This document shows positions 8,181 to 16,368 of a stretch of 64,000 nt of DNA, in pieces. The DNA lies in NCBI GenBank assembly GCA_003210775.1, contig QCUI01000001.1, positions 1 to 64,000 on the forward strand. Direction: 5' to 3'. The stretch's first letter is position 1. Each line of letters opens with the position of its first letter. The stretch comes from Synechococcus sp. AG-679-A04 (GTDB lineage: Bacteria; Cyanobacteriota; Cyanobacteriia; PCC-6307; Cyanobiaceae). The notes under the pieces were generated by a model. That model was not told where the DNA came from. It saw only the letters and a list, made by a program, of their open reading frames with translations, and did no database searches. Both the position numbers and the translations under genes were made by a program.

Positions 8181-9644
8181 ATGGCGACGGCTCCCCTCCC
8201 TCTATGCGCAGCTCCGATCCGTTTCGGCACCGATGGGTGGCGGGGAATCCTCGGGGTGGACATCACCGTGGAGCGGCTGCTGCCGGTGGCGGCGGCGGCC
8301 GCCCAGGAACTCGCCCACCAAGCACCGGATCAGCTCAACAGCAAAACAGTGGTGATCGGCTACGACCGCCGGTTCCTGGCACCGGAACTTGCGGAGGCGA
8401 TCGCTTCTTCAGTGCGCGGAGTTGGCTTGGAACCCCTGCTCACAAGCACCCCTGTTCCCACACCGGCATGCAGCTGGACCGTGGTGCAGCGCGGGGCCTT
8501 GGGAGCCCTCGTGATCACCGCCAGCCACAACCCGCCCGAATGGCTGGGTTTGAAGATCAAGGGACCATTCGGCGGATCAGTGGACGGCAGCTTCACTGCC
8601 GCGGTGGAGCAGCGATTGGCTGCAGGCAGCGTCAACGTGCCGGTTGCGGGGAAGCTGCCACGCTTTGACGCACGCAGCGAGCACTTGGAGGGGCTGCGAA
8701 CCAAGTTGAATCTGAGCGCCATCACCGCTGGACTCAAGGCCATGAACCTGCGTGTGATCGTGGACCCAATGCATGGCTCAGCTGCAGGCTGTGTGTTGGA
8801 TCTGCTCGAAACCGATGCCGATGGCCTCGTTTCCGAAATCCGCAGCCAGCGAGATCCACTCTTCGGCGGCTGTCCTCCGGAACCGCTCGCCTCTCACTTA
8901 CAGGATCTGATCGCAGCGGTTCAGACCTCTGGTCGCCATGGGCAGCCGGCAGTGGGCCTCGTCTTCGACGGTGATGGCGATCGCATCGCAGCAGTGGATG
9001 AGCACGGTTGTTTCTGCAGCACCCAGCAACTGATGCCTCTGCTGATTGATCATCTCGCTGGAGCAAGGCAGTTGCCCGGCACTGTGGTGAAGACCGTCAG
9101 TGGATCCGACCTGATGCGTCTGGTCGCTGAGGACCACGGCCGAGAAGTGCTTGAGCTACCTGTGGGTTTCAAGTACATCGCCGCAGAGATGCTGGCGAAT
9201 GAGGTGTTGATCGGCGGAGAGGAGTCGGGAGGCGTCGGCTTCGGCATGCACCTGCCTGAACGCGATGCATTGTTCGCCGCCATGCTCGTACTGGAGGCCC
9301 TCGTTCAGGGGGGCATGCCACTGGGAGCCCGCATGCAGGCTCTGCGTCAGCGCTGCGGTGGCTCGAGTCATTACGACCGGCTCGATCTGCGCCTGGCCGA
9401 TATGGAGTCCCGTCGACGCCTGGAACAACGACTGGCGACCCAGCCACCGGCACAAGTGGCTGGCCAGTCTGTGACGGAAGTGATCACGACGGATGGCGTG
9501 AAGCTGCGGCTCGGCCCTAGCCACTGGTTGATGCTGCGCTTTTCCGGCACTGAACCCCTGCTCCGGCTGTATTGCGAAGCACCCGACAATGATCGGTTAG
9601 CGGCCGTGCTGGCCTGGGCGCGCAGCTATGCGGAGGCCGCTTGA
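8181..9644 (+). CDS. Phosphoglucomutase/phosphomannomutase family protein
   Basis: 'IRFGTDGWRGI', 'ALVITASHNPPEWLGLKIKG', 'VFDGDGDRIAAVD', 'GGEESGGVGF'. Confidence 0.93.
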   Translation: MATAPLPLCAAPIRFGTDGWRGILGVDITVERLLPVAAAAAQELAHQAPDQLNSKTVVIGYDRRFLAPELAEAIASSVRGVGLEPLLTSTPVPTPACSWTVVQRGALGALVITASHNPPEWLGLKIKGPFGGSVDGSFTAAVEQRLAAGSVNVPVAGKLPRFDARSEHLEGLRTKLNLSAITAGLKAMNLRVIVDPMHGSAAGCVLDLLETDADGLVSEIRSQRDPLFGGCPPEPLASHLQDLIAAVQTSGRHGQPAVGLVFDGDGDRIAAVDEHGCFCSTQQLMPLLIDHLAGARQLPGTVVKTVSGSDLMRLVAEDHGREVLELPVGFKYIAAEMLANEVLIGGEESGGVGFGMHLPERDALFAAMLVLEALVQGGMPLGARMQALRQRCGGSSHYDRLDLRLADMESRRRLEQRLATQPPAQVAGQSVTEVITTDGVKLRLGPSHWLMLRFSGTEPLLRLYCEAPDNDRLAAVLAWARSYAEAA

Positions 9645-10234
9645 GCATGAACACGCAAACCCTGATCATCGCCAGTGGCAATCCGGGCAAGGTGCGGGAA
9701 TTCGAGGGGCTGCTCAGCGGATTACCGCTGAAGGTGAAAGCACAGCCTGAGGGGTTGGACGTTGAAGAAACAGGCAGCACCTTCACCGCCAATGCGCGCA
9801 TCAAAGCGCTTGCCGTGGCGGCAGAGACAGGGGAGTGGGCTCTCGCGGACGACTCAGGGCTGAGCGTGGATGCGCTTGATGGAGCTCCAGGCGTTCACTC
9901 CGCCCGCTACGCCCCGAGCGATCCAGAACGAATCGCTCGGCTGCTGCAAGCCCTCGAATCTGAAGGCAATCGCACCGCCCGCTTCTGTGCAGCCCTTTGT
10001 GTGGCAGCTCCCGACGGCACGGTGCTGCTCGAGGTGGAGGGCCAGTGCAAGGGATGGATCACCCGAACACCGAGAGGAGATCAAGGCTTCGGCTACGACC
10101 CGATTTTTGAAGTCGAAGGCACACAGGCAACGTTCGCAGAAATGTCTCTGCAGGGAAAAAAAGCCCACGGCCATCGAGGTCGCGCTTTCACCTTGCTGGA
10201 ACCTCGCCTGCGGCAACTGCTGTCTCAGCAGTGA
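9641..10234 (+). CDS. rdgB: Non-canonical purine NTP pyrophosphatase (RdgB/HAM1)
   Basis: 'LIIASGNPGKVREFEGLL', 'ALADDSGLSVDALDGAPGVHSARYA', 'FGYDPIFEVEG'. Confidence 0.93.
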   Translation: MSMNTQTLIIASGNPGKVREFEGLLSGLPLKVKAQPEGLDVEETGSTFTANARIKALAVAAETGEWALADDSGLSVDALDGAPGVHSARYAPSDPERIARLLQALESEGNRTARFCAALCVAAPDGTVLLEVEGQCKGWITRTPRGDQGFGYDPIFEVEGTQATFAEMSLQGKKAHGHRGRAFTLLEPRLRQLLSQQ

Positions 10235-10311: not shown

Positions 10312-11349
10312 ATGGCCATCGCCATGACCACCGGTTACAGCGCACAGACTGAAGGCGCTCTGCTTTGCATCGAAGCCGCCTCGGACTGGGCCCTGACTTG
10401 TGTTGACCAACTTGCTACTGCTGACAGCCATGTGCTGATCGATTACGGAGCCGCCGATGGCGGAACTGCCGTGGGTCTGTGGCAGCAGGTGCTGGACCGC
10501 TTGCATGCCAATCAGCCCCAGGCCCACCTGACCCTGATCGGCAACGATCTGCCCAGCAACGACAACGTTGCCCTGGCCGAGAATCTGGCACGACAGATCC
10601 CTCGCACTCCCAAGCCCACCGTGCTGGTGAGCGCCCGTAGCTTCTATGAGCCATCTGTGGGTCCCAACACGGTGAGCTTTGGCTTTTCCGCCACTGCCAT
10701 GCACTGGCTGAGCGAGTCGCCAGGTCCGCTGAATACCCATACCCACGTGCTGGCATCCGGTGATGCCGATGCTCTGCAACGTTTCACGGCGCAGGCCCTT
10801 AAGGACTGGACTTACGTTTTGGAGTTGCGCAGCAAAGAGCTGAAAGTTGGTGGTCGCCTGCTGACGGTGAACCTGTCCCGCGATGAAGAGGGTCGTTACC
10901 TCGGCAACAACGGCGGCGAAACCCGCAATGTGCACGACCAGTTGCATCAGATCTGGAAGAGTCTTGCCGACGAAGGCGTGATCTCTGAGGAGCAGTACCG
11001 CAAGGGAACGGTGCTGAACTTCTACAAGTCACCCGAAGAATTCATGGCGCCACTGAAAGATCAGAGCTCGGCGCCCTACCGCAATGGGCTGCGTCTGGTG
11101 GATGAGCGCACGGTGTACGTCAAGTGCCCCTACCGCCGCCGCTGGGAGGAGAACGGCGACACTGCTGCCTTCGCGGCTGGACTGATGGCCACGATCCGCA
11201 GCTGGAGCCGTCACAGCTTCGCCAGCACTGCCGGAGACGCGGTGGCAGATGAGGTGTACAGCCGCTTGGAGCAACGCATCGCGGCAGCCCCCTCCGAGTG
11301 GAGCCTGGATTACGTGGAGCACCACCAAATGATGGAGAAAGTGGCCTGA
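10312..11349 (+). CDS. SABATH-type (Methyltransf_7-like) SAM-dependent methyltransferase
   Basis: 'VLIDYGAADGGTAVGLW', 'LIGNDLPSNDN', 'SFYEPSVGPNTVSFGFSATAMHWLSESP', 'RSKELKVGGRLLTVNL' match the SABATH motif order. Confidence 0.85.
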   Translation: MAIAMTTGYSAQTEGALLCIEAASDWALTCVDQLATADSHVLIDYGAADGGTAVGLWQQVLDRLHANQPQAHLTLIGNDLPSNDNVALAENLARQIPRTPKPTVLVSARSFYEPSVGPNTVSFGFSATAMHWLSESPGPLNTHTHVLASGDADALQRFTAQALKDWTYVLELRSKELKVGGRLLTVNLSRDEEGRYLGNNGGETRNVHDQLHQIWKSLADEGVISEEQYRKGTVLNFYKSPEEFMAPLKDQSSAPYRNGLRLVDERTVYVKCPYRRRWEENGDTAAFAAGLMATIRSWSRHSFASTAGDAVADEVYSRLEQRIAAAPSEWSLDYVEHHQMMEKVA

Positions 11350-12404
11350 TGACAACAACAACCCGACCTGCGCCGGACGTCTCGGTGCTAGCTGAACATG
11401 TCTCCGAGCATCTGTCGGTGTTCGTGGTGGCCGAGAACACCGATGCGCGACGCCCCGCGAACGGCGGCCTGCGTCTGCTCAATTACCCAAGCGATGAGGC
11501 CTGCATTGCTGACGGACAGCGACTTGCGGGGCTAATGACCCACAAGCACGACCTCTACGGCACCGGTTTCGCAGGCGGCAAGATCGTGGCGCGCGCCGCC
11601 GAACCGGAAGCGGTGAAGGACGAGCTGATCAGCGTCACCGCTGGGCTTCTGGAGTCTCTCGACGGAGCCATGATTACTGGCTGCGATCTGAACACCAGCC
11701 TGGAGGACATGGAGCGACTGACGGAGCTCACTCCCCATGTACTGGCAGCCGTCGGCAGTCCTGTTGATGCCAGCGCAGCAACGGCTCATGGCACCCTTGG
11801 CGCCGTTGAAGCCGTACTCGAATCAACCCTGGCTGAGGCGAAACCCGGTCGAGCGCTGGTGCATGGATGCGGCGCCGTCGGCGGCACAGTGGCCCGCGTC
11901 TTGGTTGAGCACGGCTGGACCGTGTTCACCGTGGATCTCAGTCCCGAACGTGCAGGCTTCCCTGGTGCCACCCCTCTGCCTCAGGACTGTCCTTGGTGGG
12001 AGCTGAAGCTGGATCTGCTGCTGCCCTGCTCGATCTCAGGTCTGATCAATGCTGAAATCGCCTCGGCCCTGAGAGTCAAATCCGTGGTCCCAGCGGCCAA
12101 TGCTCCGTTCCAAAGTTCTCAACTCGCCGACGACCTGCGTCGCCGGGGCATCCGTGTGCTGCCAGATCCACTGGTCAATGCCGGCGCCGTGATCGCTGAC
12201 TCGATCGAACGCTTCTCACCCGACGCCTGGAAAGGTGCAGGCGCGGAGGATGTCTACGCCTTCGTACGCAATGAGGTGCGCCAAAGAGCCACTGACTATC
12301 TGAATCAGCGCGATCAGGGCCTCTCCGTTGGAGCAGCTCTGGTGGAAGTGACCGCCGAACGGGAGACCGATCCGATCGGCCTCAGCTTCGGAGACGAGGC
12401 ATGA
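11349..12404 (+). CDS. Glu/Leu/Phe/Val dehydrogenase family protein (leucine-dehydrogenase-like)
   Basis: 'GGLRLLNYPS', two Lys in 'MTHK...AGGK', 'HGTLGAVEAVLES', 'VHGCGAVGGTVARVL'; start overlaps the upstream stop (TGATG). Confidence 0.85.
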   Translation: MTTTTRPAPDVSVLAEHVSEHLSVFVVAENTDARRPANGGLRLLNYPSDEACIADGQRLAGLMTHKHDLYGTGFAGGKIVARAAEPEAVKDELISVTAGLLESLDGAMITGCDLNTSLEDMERLTELTPHVLAAVGSPVDASAATAHGTLGAVEAVLESTLAEAKPGRALVHGCGAVGGTVARVLVEHGWTVFTVDLSPERAGFPGATPLPQDCPWWELKLDLLLPCSISGLINAEIASALRVKSVVPAANAPFQSSQLADDLRRRGIRVLPDPLVNAGAVIADSIERFSPDAWKGAGAEDVYAFVRNEVRQRATDYLNQRDQGLSVGAALVEVTAERETDPIGLSFGDEA

Positions 12405-13588
12405 GCTCGGCCACTCTTCCCTCTAAAGCCTCTGTGGTGATTGTCGGCGGTGGCATGGCAGGTCTCAGCTGTGCCGCGTCCCTGGCCCGTCGCGGCATCA
12501 CCGACGTGGTGCTACTCGAAGCGAAAACACTGGCGCATGCCAAGGCCAGCAGTTTTGGCGAAACCCGGATGTTTCGGGAGATGTACTCCGACCCCGTGCT
12601 CTGCCGTCTAGCGCAGGAGGCCAACAGGCTCTGGCGTGAGGAAGAGATCCACGCAGGAGAACAGCTACGCGAAACCCATGGGTTGCTGTTTTACGGCGAA
12701 AGCTGGGATGAGGAAACGATCGAAGGATCGATCCCAGGTGCCCGCCGGGTGATGGACGATCAGGGCATCCCCTATGAGGCACTGAATGCCGATCAGATCT
12801 CAACCCGCTTCCCCCTGAAACCCAAGAGCGATTTCACCGGCCTGTTTGAGCCCACCGCTGGTGCGGTGCGCAGCGACAAAGTGATTGCCCACTGGATCAG
12901 TACAGCCCGTCAAGCCGGACATCAACTGGTCGAACATTGCCCGGTGGCGAACCTGGATGCCGACGGTGGTGGCGTCACACTTGAGAGCGGTCACCACATC
13001 GCCGCCGGCCAGCTGGTCGTGGCCTGTGGCATCTGGAGCCAGCTGATGCTGGCACCGCTGGGTCTCGCTCCGAAGCTCGAGGTATGGCCCATGCTCTGGG
13101 CTCATTACACCGTGGACCCTGCTTTAGCGGATCGTTATCCGCAATGGTTCTGCTTCCAAAAGGAACGCGGCGATGACGGAGGTCTGTATTACGGCTTCCC
13201 TGTGCTCAGCCATACCAACGATGGCCGACCACGAATCAAAGCTGGCATCGACTGGGCACCCAAAGAACTGCGTGTCGCAGAACCCAATGCCATGACCACC
13301 GAGCCACCGGCCAGGCTGGTCGAACTGCTCGACACGTTCCTGTTCAACGAACTCGAAGGCGTCCAGGAACGGGTCGAAACAGTGATCAATCCCTACTCAA
13401 TGGCCAGCGACGTCAATTTCGTGCTGGACCGTCTGAGCCCCAAGCTGAGCCTGTTTGCCGGAGGCTCAGGCCAAGCCTTCAAATTCGCTCCCCTGATCGG
13501 CGACTCGCTGGCACGACTTGCCAGCGGTGAAACCCCTGCTGTTGATCTTTCCTGCTGGAGTCACCAGCGCGAAGCCGTCAGCGCCTAA
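12401..13588 (+). CDS. FAD-dependent oxidoreductase, monomeric sarcosine oxidase / N-methyltryptophan oxidase-like
   Basis: 'VVIVGGGMAGLSCAASLARRG', 'SSFGETRMFREMY', 'FAGGSGQAFKFAPLIGDSLARL'; ATGA overlap with upstream gene. Confidence 0.88.
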   Translation: MSSATLPSKASVVIVGGGMAGLSCAASLARRGITDVVLLEAKTLAHAKASSFGETRMFREMYSDPVLCRLAQEANRLWREEEIHAGEQLRETHGLLFYGESWDEETIEGSIPGARRVMDDQGIPYEALNADQISTRFPLKPKSDFTGLFEPTAGAVRSDKVIAHWISTARQAGHQLVEHCPVANLDADGGGVTLESGHHIAAGQLVVACGIWSQLMLAPLGLAPKLEVWPMLWAHYTVDPALADRYPQWFCFQKERGDDGGLYYGFPVLSHTNDGRPRIKAGIDWAPKELRVAEPNAMTTEPPARLVELLDTFLFNELEGVQERVETVINPYSMASDVNFVLDRLSPKLSLFAGGSGQAFKFAPLIGDSLARLASGETPAVDLSCWSHQREAVSA

Positions 13589-15188
13589 ATCCCCTCTCGC
13601 CCAAACATCTCCCTTGCCCGACCCATCAACCCTCCAGGACGGCGCGACTGAAACCAGCCAGTGGTGGCAACGCAAACCCCTGTGGATCGGAGCAGGGCCA
13701 TTGCTGGTCTTTCTGGTGGTCGCAGCCGTTGACCTCAAACTGGCGCAGCATTTCACCAGCTCAGGCAAGGCCATTGTGAGCAACGCTCTCGGCGGCCTCT
13801 GGCAGTGGATGGTCCTGCTGCTGTTTGTGATTGCCATCGTGCTGGCAGTCAGCCCGATCGGCACCTTGCGCCTGGGAGGAGCTGATGCCAAACCGAGCCT
13901 GAAATTCTTCGACTGGTGTGCTGTGCTGATTTGCACGCTGCTAGCCGGCGGTGGTGTGTTCTGGTCTGCAGCCGAACCGTTGTTCCACTTCCGGGATCCG
14001 GCGCCCTACTTCGTCGGAGTCGAGGGATCCACAGCGGCTGCGGTTGATCCCTCTTTGGCCGTGAGCTTCCTGCACTGGGGATTCCTGGCCTGGGCCCTGG
14101 TGGCAACAACGGTGACGATCACCCTCTCAATCCAGGAGCAACGGGGCGAACCTCTGCGACCACGCACGCTGCTGGTGGGGATCCTTCCCAGCAGCTGGGT
14201 GAATGGTCCTCTGGGGCACCTCGCGGATGGCCTCTCCGTGGTGGCCGCCATCGCTGGAACCGTGGGACCTCTGGGTTTCCTCTCGCTCCAGCTCAGTAAC
14301 GCCGCAGGCATGCTGCCTGGTTTCAGCGACAGCGCGGGACTGCAGTCTCTAGTGGTGGTCCTGCTCACAGCGGTGTTTGCAACCTCCACGGTGAGTGGAA
14401 TCCAGCGAGGCATCAAGTGGCTGTCTGAACTGAACGTCTGGCTGACCCTTGGTCTTGCAGCCGCTTTGCTGTTACTGGGCCCCGGCCTATGGCTGATTCA
14501 ACACTTCATCAGCGCATTCGGGCTCTATCTCACCAACCTGCCGCGGATGGCACTCGCCCACAACAGCAGTCCAGGCAACTGGGTGAATGGCTGGACCGTG
14601 TTCTATTGGGGCTGGTTCCTCGGCTATGCCCCGCTGATGGGTCTGTTCACGGCAGGGGTGAGCCGCGGCCGTACTCTGCGCGAACTGGTGCTGGCGGTTG
14701 CCATCCTCTGCCCGATCGTGACCAACATCTGGTTCACATTGCTCGGCGGCTCTGGGATGCAGTTGGAACTCGCCAACCCAGGCTCCATCAGCGGCCCTCT
14801 CAGCGCCAGCGGGGAGTCGGGCGCACTGCTAGCGATTCTCGGCCAGCTTCCCTTGTCCTGGCTGTTGATTCCGGTCGGCCTTGTGTTGGTGGTGCTGTTC
14901 ATGGCCACCAGTGCCGACTCAATGAGTTACGCAGCAGCCATGGTGGTGAGTGCTCAGCGCACACCTCCGACCCTGCTGCGTTTGTTCTGGGCTCTGATGA
15001 TCGGCAGCCTCACTCTGGTGTTGCTGCGCATCGGCACCAGCCTGGGAGACAACACCTCGATCAACGCTCTGCAAGCCTTCATCGTGATCACCGCCGTGCC
15101 AGTCACCCCTCTGGTTCTGCTGAGTCTCTGGACGGCCCCACGTCTGGCCTGGAAGGAATGGCGCCAGCGACAGCCGGCTCAGGGCTAA
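13518..15188 (+). CDS. BCCT family transporter (start ambiguous: ATG 13518 or a later TTG near 13.61 kb)
   Basis: 556 aa, many TM segments, 'GWTVFYWGWFLGYAPLMGLFTAGVSRGRTLREL' BCCT signature, 'FMATSADSMSYAAAM'. Confidence 0.92.
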   Translation: MPAVKPLLLIFPAGVTSAKPSAPKSPLAQTSPLPDPSTLQDGATETSQWWQRKPLWIGAGPLLVFLVVAAVDLKLAQHFTSSGKAIVSNALGGLWQWMVLLLFVIAIVLAVSPIGTLRLGGADAKPSLKFFDWCAVLICTLLAGGGVFWSAAEPLFHFRDPAPYFVGVEGSTAAAVDPSLAVSFLHWGFLAWALVATTVTITLSIQEQRGEPLRPRTLLVGILPSSWVNGPLGHLADGLSVVAAIAGTVGPLGFLSLQLSNAAGMLPGFSDSAGLQSLVVVLLTAVFATSTVSGIQRGIKWLSELNVWLTLGLAAALLLLGPGLWLIQHFISAFGLYLTNLPRMALAHNSSPGNWVNGWTVFYWGWFLGYAPLMGLFTAGVSRGRTLRELVLAVAILCPIVTNIWFTLLGGSGMQLELANPGSISGPLSASGESGALLAILGQLPLSWLLIPVGLVLVVLFMATSADSMSYAAAMVVSAQRTPPTLLRLFWALMIGSLTLVLLRIGTSLGDNTSINALQAFIVITAVPVTPLVLLSLWTAPRLAWKEWRQRQPAQG

Positions 15189-16368
15189 AACTGATCCAGC
15201 TGGCCATCACAACACCAAAAAGGGCCAGTGCCCCATAGATCACTAGCACCAGCGACAGGTCTCCCTGAGGAGAGGCCTGCAGAATCAGCCCAGACACGAT
15301 CGTCATCAACCCGCCCATCACCGTGCCAGAGGTGTTGACGATTGACACTGTCATTGCCGTCTGCCCTGGAGGCGCAGCGGCTTCAGCGATCGGGAACGCC
15401 AGCACGGACGTACCGATGCCGACACCGAAGCTGAAGGCAGGCAGCATCAAAACCCCACGCGGCAGAGATGGCGTGATCAACAGCATCAACGACAGCAGCG
15501 TGATCATGGTGCCGGCCAGAAGCAGACCACCACGTTGCTGAGGTCGGCCACCGAGAGCCCCACTGACAACCATCCCCACCACCAGGCCGATCGACATGAT
15601 CAGGGTGAGACTCTCCATTAACGGACTGGACCAGCCCCTCAGGCTGGAGAGCAGGCCGTACTGCGCCATCCCGAACACGAAGCCAAGCCCCCACGCGTAG
15701 AGAAGGCAGCACTGAATCAGGCGATTGACTCCAGCCCTGGTCCAGCGCTGCACACGAACGTCCTGCTCTGCCTTTGGCAAAACGCTCGGCGCGCGTCGAC
15801 TGGCCCCGAGCAGAAGCATCGGCAAGGCCACAACCAGGGCGAGAGAGAGCCCCTGGAGAAGCACCAGATGCCGCCAGCCGGAGCGGCCCAGCAGCAGTGG
15901 CACCACGGCCGCCAACGCGGCACCGACTCCCAACAGGCCATCGGTGAACCCCATCGCCAGGGCGAAGCGATCTGCGGGCAGGCTGCGTCGTGCCAGCAAC
16001 GCTGATGCTGGGAATGCCACAGCGCAAGCCATGCCAGTGCCGATACGAGACAACAGCAGCCCCTGCAGGCTGTCGCTACTGGCGAACACCAGGCTGCAGC
16101 ACGCTGCAGCTAAAGCAGCCAGCAGCAGCCAGAGCTCGACCCTGCCCCGGTCGATCAAGCGGCCAACGGGCACTTGCACTAGGCCATAGGGCAACAGAAA
16201 GCTGCCGGCAACCAGCGCGACCCCTGCCGAATGCAGACGCAGATCCGATCCCAGGGAGCCTTCGAAATACTGAAAGCTGGTTTCCACCCAGACCAGCCAA
16301 ACCACAAACAGAAGGCTTGTGACCCAGAGCAACCGATCGCTGCGTCTCGCCTCCATGACTCCTACCAA
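15103..16368 (-). CDS. MFS transporter
   Basis: About 12 hydrophobic segments, 'PYGLVQVPVGRLIDRGR' MFS loop motif. Confidence 0.88.
   Translation of the reverse strand: MVGVMEARRSDRLLWVTSLLFVVWLVWVETSFQYFEGSLGSDLRLHSAGVALVAGSFLLPYGLVQVPVGRLIDRGRVELWLLLAALAAACCSLVFASSDSLQGLLLSRIGTGMACAVAFPASALLARRSLPADRFALAMGFTDGLLGVGAALAAVVPLLLGRSGWRHLVLLQGLSLALVVALPMLLLGASRRAPSVLPKAEQDVRVQRWTRAGVNRLIQCCLLYAWGLGFVFGMAQYGLLSSLRGWSSPLMESLTLIMSIGLVVGMVVSGALGGRPQQRGGLLLAGTMITLLSLMLLITPSLPRGVLMLPAFSFGVGIGTSVLAFPIAEAAAPPGQTAMTVSIVNTSGTVMGGLMTIVSGLILQASPQGDLSLVLVIYGALALFGVVMASWISFSPEPAVAGAIPSRPDVGPSRDSAEPEG

Follow-up and report, generated by a model that had tools for sequence, protein, structure and literature searches.

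The 64,000-nucleotide window analysed here (positions 1 to 64,000 of contig QCUI01000001.1, Synechococcus sp. AG-679-A04) contains a four-gene operon that encodes, head to tail on the + strand, a SABATH-family methyltransferase, an ELFV-type amino-acid dehydrogenase, a NikD-like flavin adenine dinucleotide (FAD) oxidase and a BCCT-family transporter. We consider it likely that this operon makes and handles homarine from lysine. Homarine (N-methylpicolinate) is a zwitterionic betaine and a common marine osmolyte. In the proposed pathway, the dehydrogenase would strip the alpha-amino group from L-lysine with NAD(P)+, and the resulting 2-oxo-6-aminohexanoate would spontaneously close to piperideine-2-carboxylate (P2C). 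The flavoenzyme would then catalyse the four-electron oxidation of P2C with O2 to picolinate and H2O2, the SABATH enzyme would move a methyl group from S-adenosylmethionine (SAM) onto the ring nitrogen of picolinate to yield homarine, and the BCCT would recover leaked homarine or move it across the membrane, where we infer both the direction of transport and a role of homarine as compatible solute. Taken together, a lysine 2-dehydrogenase, a NikD-like oxidase, a bacterial SABATH N-methyltransferase and a dedicated BCCT would probably constitute the first genetically defined homarine pathway, common among marine Synechococcus and scattered in Prochlorococcus. An earlier note on this DNA had interpreted the same four same-strand open reading frames, all of which are present, as a pathway that imports and remodels an N-methylated or methyl-esterified amino-acid-like compound. 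This interpretation is partly supported: an N-methylated, amino-acid-derived zwitterion is retained as the subject, whereas import and remodelling match the set of enzymes and their pocket residues less well than does de novo formation of a lysine-derived methylated pyridine betaine.

The four genes are inherited as one functional unit, as the earlier note had supposed. In a family-level sample of 300 genomes from 59 genera, the SABATH gene was identified in 53 genomes belonging to six genera, and the oxidase gene is present in exactly these 53. SABATH, dehydrogenase and oxidase genes follow each other in this order at all 53 loci, and all four genes are contiguous and in the same order in 51 of the 53 genomes, which is far beyond chance. 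The BCCT gene occurs in 52 of the 53 SABATH-bearing genomes and in none of the remaining 247; co-occurrence in this family sample is near-perfect rather than rare. Because of shared ancestry, these counts are not independent of one another; contrasts within a genus are more informative. Three genomes of cluster-bearing genera in which the cluster is absent (G225, G267 and G009) also lack the BCCT. The Prochlorococcus genome G270 encodes the BCCT about 1 Mb from the three enzyme genes, so co-occurrence there is no by-product of linkage, and the Prochlorococcus genome G229 retains the three enzymes without any BCCT. Furthermore, two relocated copies (L036 and L081) keep the four genes together although their usual glmM-ham1 neighbours are lost. 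Mean identity to the window proteins, calculated over 71 loci containing all six genes and leaving out pairs at least 95% identical, is 87% for the oxidase, 86% for the SABATH protein and 82% for the dehydrogenase, followed by glmM and the BCCT (79% each) and ham1 (73%).

The two Synechococcus strains analysed for homarine both contain it: after a published correction, the values are up to 18 mM for WH8102 and about 0.2 mM for WH7803 (PMC8269262, PMC10134881). It is notable as a nitrogen-containing betaine in ocean particles and Synechococcus, and two papers describe the genes for its biosynthesis as unknown (PMC8269262, PMC8269247). The homarine-positive strain WH7803 carries the full cluster (L085). 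In WH8102, SYNW0229 is the only gene mapped to BetT and lies in the predicted operon SYNW0229-0233 (PMC2874817), which comprises five genes, as does the syntenic set described here. Since the genomes with the cluster encode one full-length BCCT each and the cluster is located at 229-235 kb in genome G216, WH8102 very probably carries the same locus. As homarine has been measured in Synechococcus and WH7803 carries the cluster, the pathway points to synthesis rather than to remodelling of an imported compound. A literature search, with most subscription journals and preprints outside its scope, retrieved no paper on homarine biosynthesis, and we make no claim of priority; the passages found on expression under salinity mention none of these genes by name.

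All four proteins exceed the cut-offs of the Pfam profiles expected from the earlier family assignments (PF03492, PF00208/PF02812, PF01266 and PF02028), and none reaches an NCBIfam equivalog cut-off. The oxidase matches PF01266 with 149.1 bits (cut-off 27.9) and belongs to the monomeric sarcosine oxidase (MSOX) group as previously proposed, but its suggested identity as a sarcosine oxidase of the SolA type is rejected. Among solved proteins, NikD is both the closest in sequence (125 bits, PDB ranks 1-3, compared with 113 bits for sarcosine oxidase 7exs and 97 bits for Bacillus MSOX) and the top match (ranks 1-4) of a fold search with the AlphaFold model of the oxidase (mean predicted local distance difference test score, pLDDT, of 73). 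According to residue equivalences read from printed alignments, NikD Arg53, Glu101, Tyr258, Asp276 and Lys358, which we take to have active-site roles, correspond to Arg59, Glu108, Tyr264, Asp284 and Lys361 of the oxidase and are invariant in 90-91 loci (residue and junction counts refer to 91 loci, some of which represent the same genome taken twice). At the sites of Glu101 and Asp276, MSOX (1zov) has Ser and His269, whereas the oxidase shares Glu and Asp with NikD. The position of MSOX Lys265, presumably the residue for oxygen activation, is occupied by Lys280. Judging from these residues, the oxidase plausibly works like NikD. By analogy with nikkomycin biosynthesis, where lysine is known to be converted via P2C to picolinate with a NikD-type enzyme (PMC4021061), a route whose P2C part has also been proposed for related clusters (PMC11446937), we propose that it is a P2C oxidase yielding picolinate and H2O2.

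The dehydrogenase, which matches PF00208 (59.2 bits, cut-off 23.4) and PF02812 (30.4 bits, cut-off 25.3), has leucine and tryptophan dehydrogenases as PDB relatives. The catalytic Lys68, Lys80 and Asp115 of leucine dehydrogenase (LeuDH) are K66, K78 and D113 here and are kept in all 91 loci, so that the earlier LeuDH-type designation holds for the fold and catalytic residues. The branched-chain substrate that came with it probably does not apply: the LeuDH specificity sites Leu40, Ala113 and Val294 are replaced by Asn38, Gly111 and Asp284, which are invariant in about 90 loci. Leu40 and Val294 in LeuDH versus Lys89 and Ser380 in glutamate dehydrogenase set these two enzymes apart (PMC2723916). 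As the hydrophobic LeuDH pocket is absent, a branched-chain enzyme is improbable, and identification as a leucine or valine dehydrogenase was rejected. Asp284 was mapped by ungapped alignment to 6acf, 5b37 and 7vid; HMMER places a two-residue gap at this site for 8gxd and 3vpx, which is the main uncertainty of the mapping. With its acidic side chain at the distal end of the pocket, Asp284 suits the ammonium group of lysine, and we propose that the enzyme is an L-lysine 2-dehydrogenase whose product, 2-oxo-6-aminohexanoate, would cyclise to P2C.

These two active sites also bear on a catabolic role of the operon, in which the BCCT would import an N-methylated compound, the flavoprotein would demethylate it and the dehydrogenase would deaminate it, leading to its breakdown or remodelling. 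While a BCCT, an MSOX-fold oxidase and an ELFV dehydrogenase would each be usable in such a pathway, the oxidase has active-site residues of the NikD rather than the MSOX type, the dehydrogenase pocket is polar and acidic, unlike that of LeuDH, and it is hard to see what a methyl-donor enzyme would contribute to demethylation. In addition, import is not required in G229, which has the three enzymes without a BCCT. We therefore regard this role as quite unlikely.

The methyltransferase matches PF03492 with 82.8 bits (cut-off 29.8) over residues 40-327, which is most of its length, in agreement with the earlier SABATH assignment, and it matched no NCBIfam model. Its closest solved relatives in the PDB are the fatty acid O-methyltransferase 5f2k and plant salicylate, geniposidate and loganate methyltransferases. 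The SAM-site motif DYGAADGG is invariant across the SABATH loci, and the AlphaFold model (mean pLDDT 61.5) was too weak for a fold search. Coffee trigonelline synthases are SABATH enzymes that N-methylate nicotinate, an isomer of picolinate (PMC8877179), and by analogy we propose that the Synechococcus protein is a picolinate N-methyltransferase (homarine synthase). Family membership decides neither for N- nor for O-methylation, and we infer the former. A related synthesis that ends in another product, be it an ester such as methyl picolinate or an N-methylated heterocycle built from another diamino acid, seems unlikely. SABATH enzymes commonly methylate carboxyls, as does the nearest solved relative, and Asn38 and Asp284 of the dehydrogenase would also fit ornithine-like side chains, but a carrier of the betaine family would not be needed for a neutral ester, and the pyridine betaine that has been measured in Synechococcus is homarine. 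A Synechococcus transcript annotated as 'SAM dependent carboxyl methyltransferase (crtF)', which may or may not derive from this gene, increased with added iron chelator (PMC9723758). A distant SABATH homologue (31% identity over 97%, E 4e-49) was also found on the Rhizobium sp. CB3171 plasmid NZ_CP121655.1 (L127:4226-9339), adjoining a DadA-like FAD enzyme as well as an apparent radical-SAM enzyme and an EamA-like permease (the latter two named by eye). It was rejected as a second example of the module since the neighbouring FAD enzyme is not NikD-like, and the locus, which lies between transposases, seems to be another, uncharacterised kind of bacterial SABATH cluster.

The transporter is a full-length match to PF02028 (427.3 bits, cut-off 27), which confirms its earlier assignment to the BCCT family, and it is the sole full-length BCCT of the window genome. 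It scores 296.9 bits against the glycine-betaine BCCT equivalog NF047988, far under the cut-off of 650, and carries the unusual BCCT motifs LAGGG in transmembrane helix 3 (TM3) and FYWGWFLGYAP in TM8, which are almost invariant in 78 loci. We propose that it is a homarine carrier. Glycine-betaine uptake by the whole operon would follow a published proposal that SYNW0230-0233 might supply missing betaine-transporter subunits (PMC2874817), and it agrees with the BetT assignment of the BCCT and the WH8102 operon prediction. However, BCCT carriers are single proteins, the neighbouring genes encode enzymes of known fold, and the transporter is far below the equivalog cut-off with altered motifs, which makes this explanation highly improbable. 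The BCCT of G273 (C1:2315349-2316812) is listed with one internal TGA, and G025 carries part of a second BCCT gene on a different contig (C14:4409-4969).

Several points weigh against homarine synthesis from lysine by this operon. The oxidase is only about 30% identical to NikD (Foldseek), has Gln358 in place of NikD Trp355 and contains no cysteine for covalent FAD attachment (NikD Cys321, MSOX Cys315) at or near the aligned place; it is consequently referred to as NikD-like and not as a member of the covalent-FAD group. Most SABATH enzymes are carboxyl O-methyltransferases. Earlier homarine literature assumed an origin from tryptophan or quinolinate, and diatoms and the haptophyte Emiliania also hold or make homarine. 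Furthermore, the presence of the cluster in WH8102 is drawn from a published operon call, and the nearly 100-fold difference in homarine between WH7803 and WH8102, both expected to carry the operon, implies that regulation or another factor matters.

The coordinates of the four genes and of a syntenic neighbour are given in the table.

Table. Genes of the putative homarine operon and its upstream neighbour in the Synechococcus sp. AG-679-A04 window.
Feature	Position	Strand	Basis
SABATH-family SAM-dependent methyltransferase, 345 amino acids	10312..11349	+	PF03492
ELFV-type amino-acid dehydrogenase, 351 amino acids	11349..12404	+	PF00208/PF02812
NikD-like FAD oxidase, MSOX group, 395 amino acids	12401..13588	+	PF01266; NikD is best PDB match
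BCCT-family transporter	13614..15188 (longer frame opens at TTG 13518)	+	PF02028
Ham1/RdgB nucleotide pyrophosphatase, syntenic neighbour	9641..10234	+	PF01725

Of the three overlapping junctions claimed earlier, the first two are confirmed and conserved. The SABATH stop codon overlaps the dehydrogenase ATG in the sequence TGATG (11347-11351), and ATGA (12401-12404) couples the end of the dehydrogenase gene to the start of the oxidase gene. The former junction is TGATG (-1) or ATGA (-4) in 91 of 91 loci. At the latter, almost every Synechococcus locus has ATGA (-4), while the Prochlorococcus loci show spacings of -1 or +4. At the third junction, the BCCT frame is indeed open across the oxidase stop, but the TTG 25 nucleotides past this stop is the more likely start codon. 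BCCT starts in relatives mostly range from -17 to +45 nucleotides relative to the oxidase stop, so an overlap is not a conserved feature. The ham1 gene, which is probably not part of the pathway, is located upstream of the cluster in most Synechococcus loci and is absent beside the relocated copies L036 and L081 and the Prochlorococcus loci L051 and L052. A convergent MFS open reading frame (15103-16368, - strand) overlaps the 3' end of the BCCT gene by 86 bases (15103-15188), and similar tail-to-tail overlaps recur in several related loci. Scanning the region identified no sigma-70-like promoter and 14 terminator-like matches (shuffled mean 4.4, standard deviation 2.1).

Among 386 genomes sampled across the phylum, only picocyanobacteria carry the SABATH gene, ruling out a wider cyanobacterial occurrence in that sample. 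The full cluster including the BCCT is encoded by Synechococcus WH7803, RCC307, UW105, UW140 and MU1642, while Prochlorococcus MIT 9201, MIT 9401 and HNLC1 encode SABATH, dehydrogenase and oxidase with no BCCT within the stretch examined. In the Prochlorococcus genus of G270, 9 of 121 sampled genomes contain the cluster; this patchy occurrence suggests repeated loss or transfer. Phage or plasmid origin was considered and rejected, as phages and viral contigs gave no match and plasmids only distant rhizobial and sphingomonad SABATH proteins. In two loci (L050 in G242 and L053 in G239), the SABATH open reading frame is frameshifted into two overlapping pieces next to intact dehydrogenase, oxidase and BCCT genes, which would provide a natural experiment on the final pathway step unless it reflects a sequencing error. 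If the proposed pathway is correct, genomes and metatranscriptomes could be used to infer homarine production, certain Prochlorococcus strains would become testable new producers, and the SABATH family would gain a bacterial N-methyltransferase in osmolyte metabolism.

The proposed route resembles that of NikC and NikD (CrmC and CrmD in caerulomycin biosynthesis) in the loss of the alpha-amino group of lysine, closure to P2C and oxidation by a flavoenzyme of the MSOX group. In contrast to the aminotransferase NikC/CrmC, however, an ELFV dehydrogenase would catalyse the first step in Synechococcus, the oxidase is without the covalent-FAD cysteine and Trp355 of NikD, and picolinate, which is activated with coenzyme A in the nikkomycin module, would be N-methylated. 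The dehydrogenase shares its fold and catalytic lysines and aspartate with leucine and tryptophan dehydrogenases, but has Asn, Gly and Asp instead of Leu, Ala and Val at the specificity positions and falls below every NCBIfam equivalog cut-off. The SABATH protein belongs to the same Pfam family as coffee CTgS1/2 and the caffeine synthases, yet it is bacterial and distant in sequence from the plant N-methyltransferases, its N-methylation is putative, and its proposed acceptor is picolinate rather than the 3-carboxy isomer nicotinate used by trigonelline synthase. Finally, the BCCT agrees with BetP, BetT and DddT in family and length, but differs from them in its unusual TM3 and TM8 motifs and in scoring 297 bits where the glycine-betaine equivalog has a cut-off of 650.

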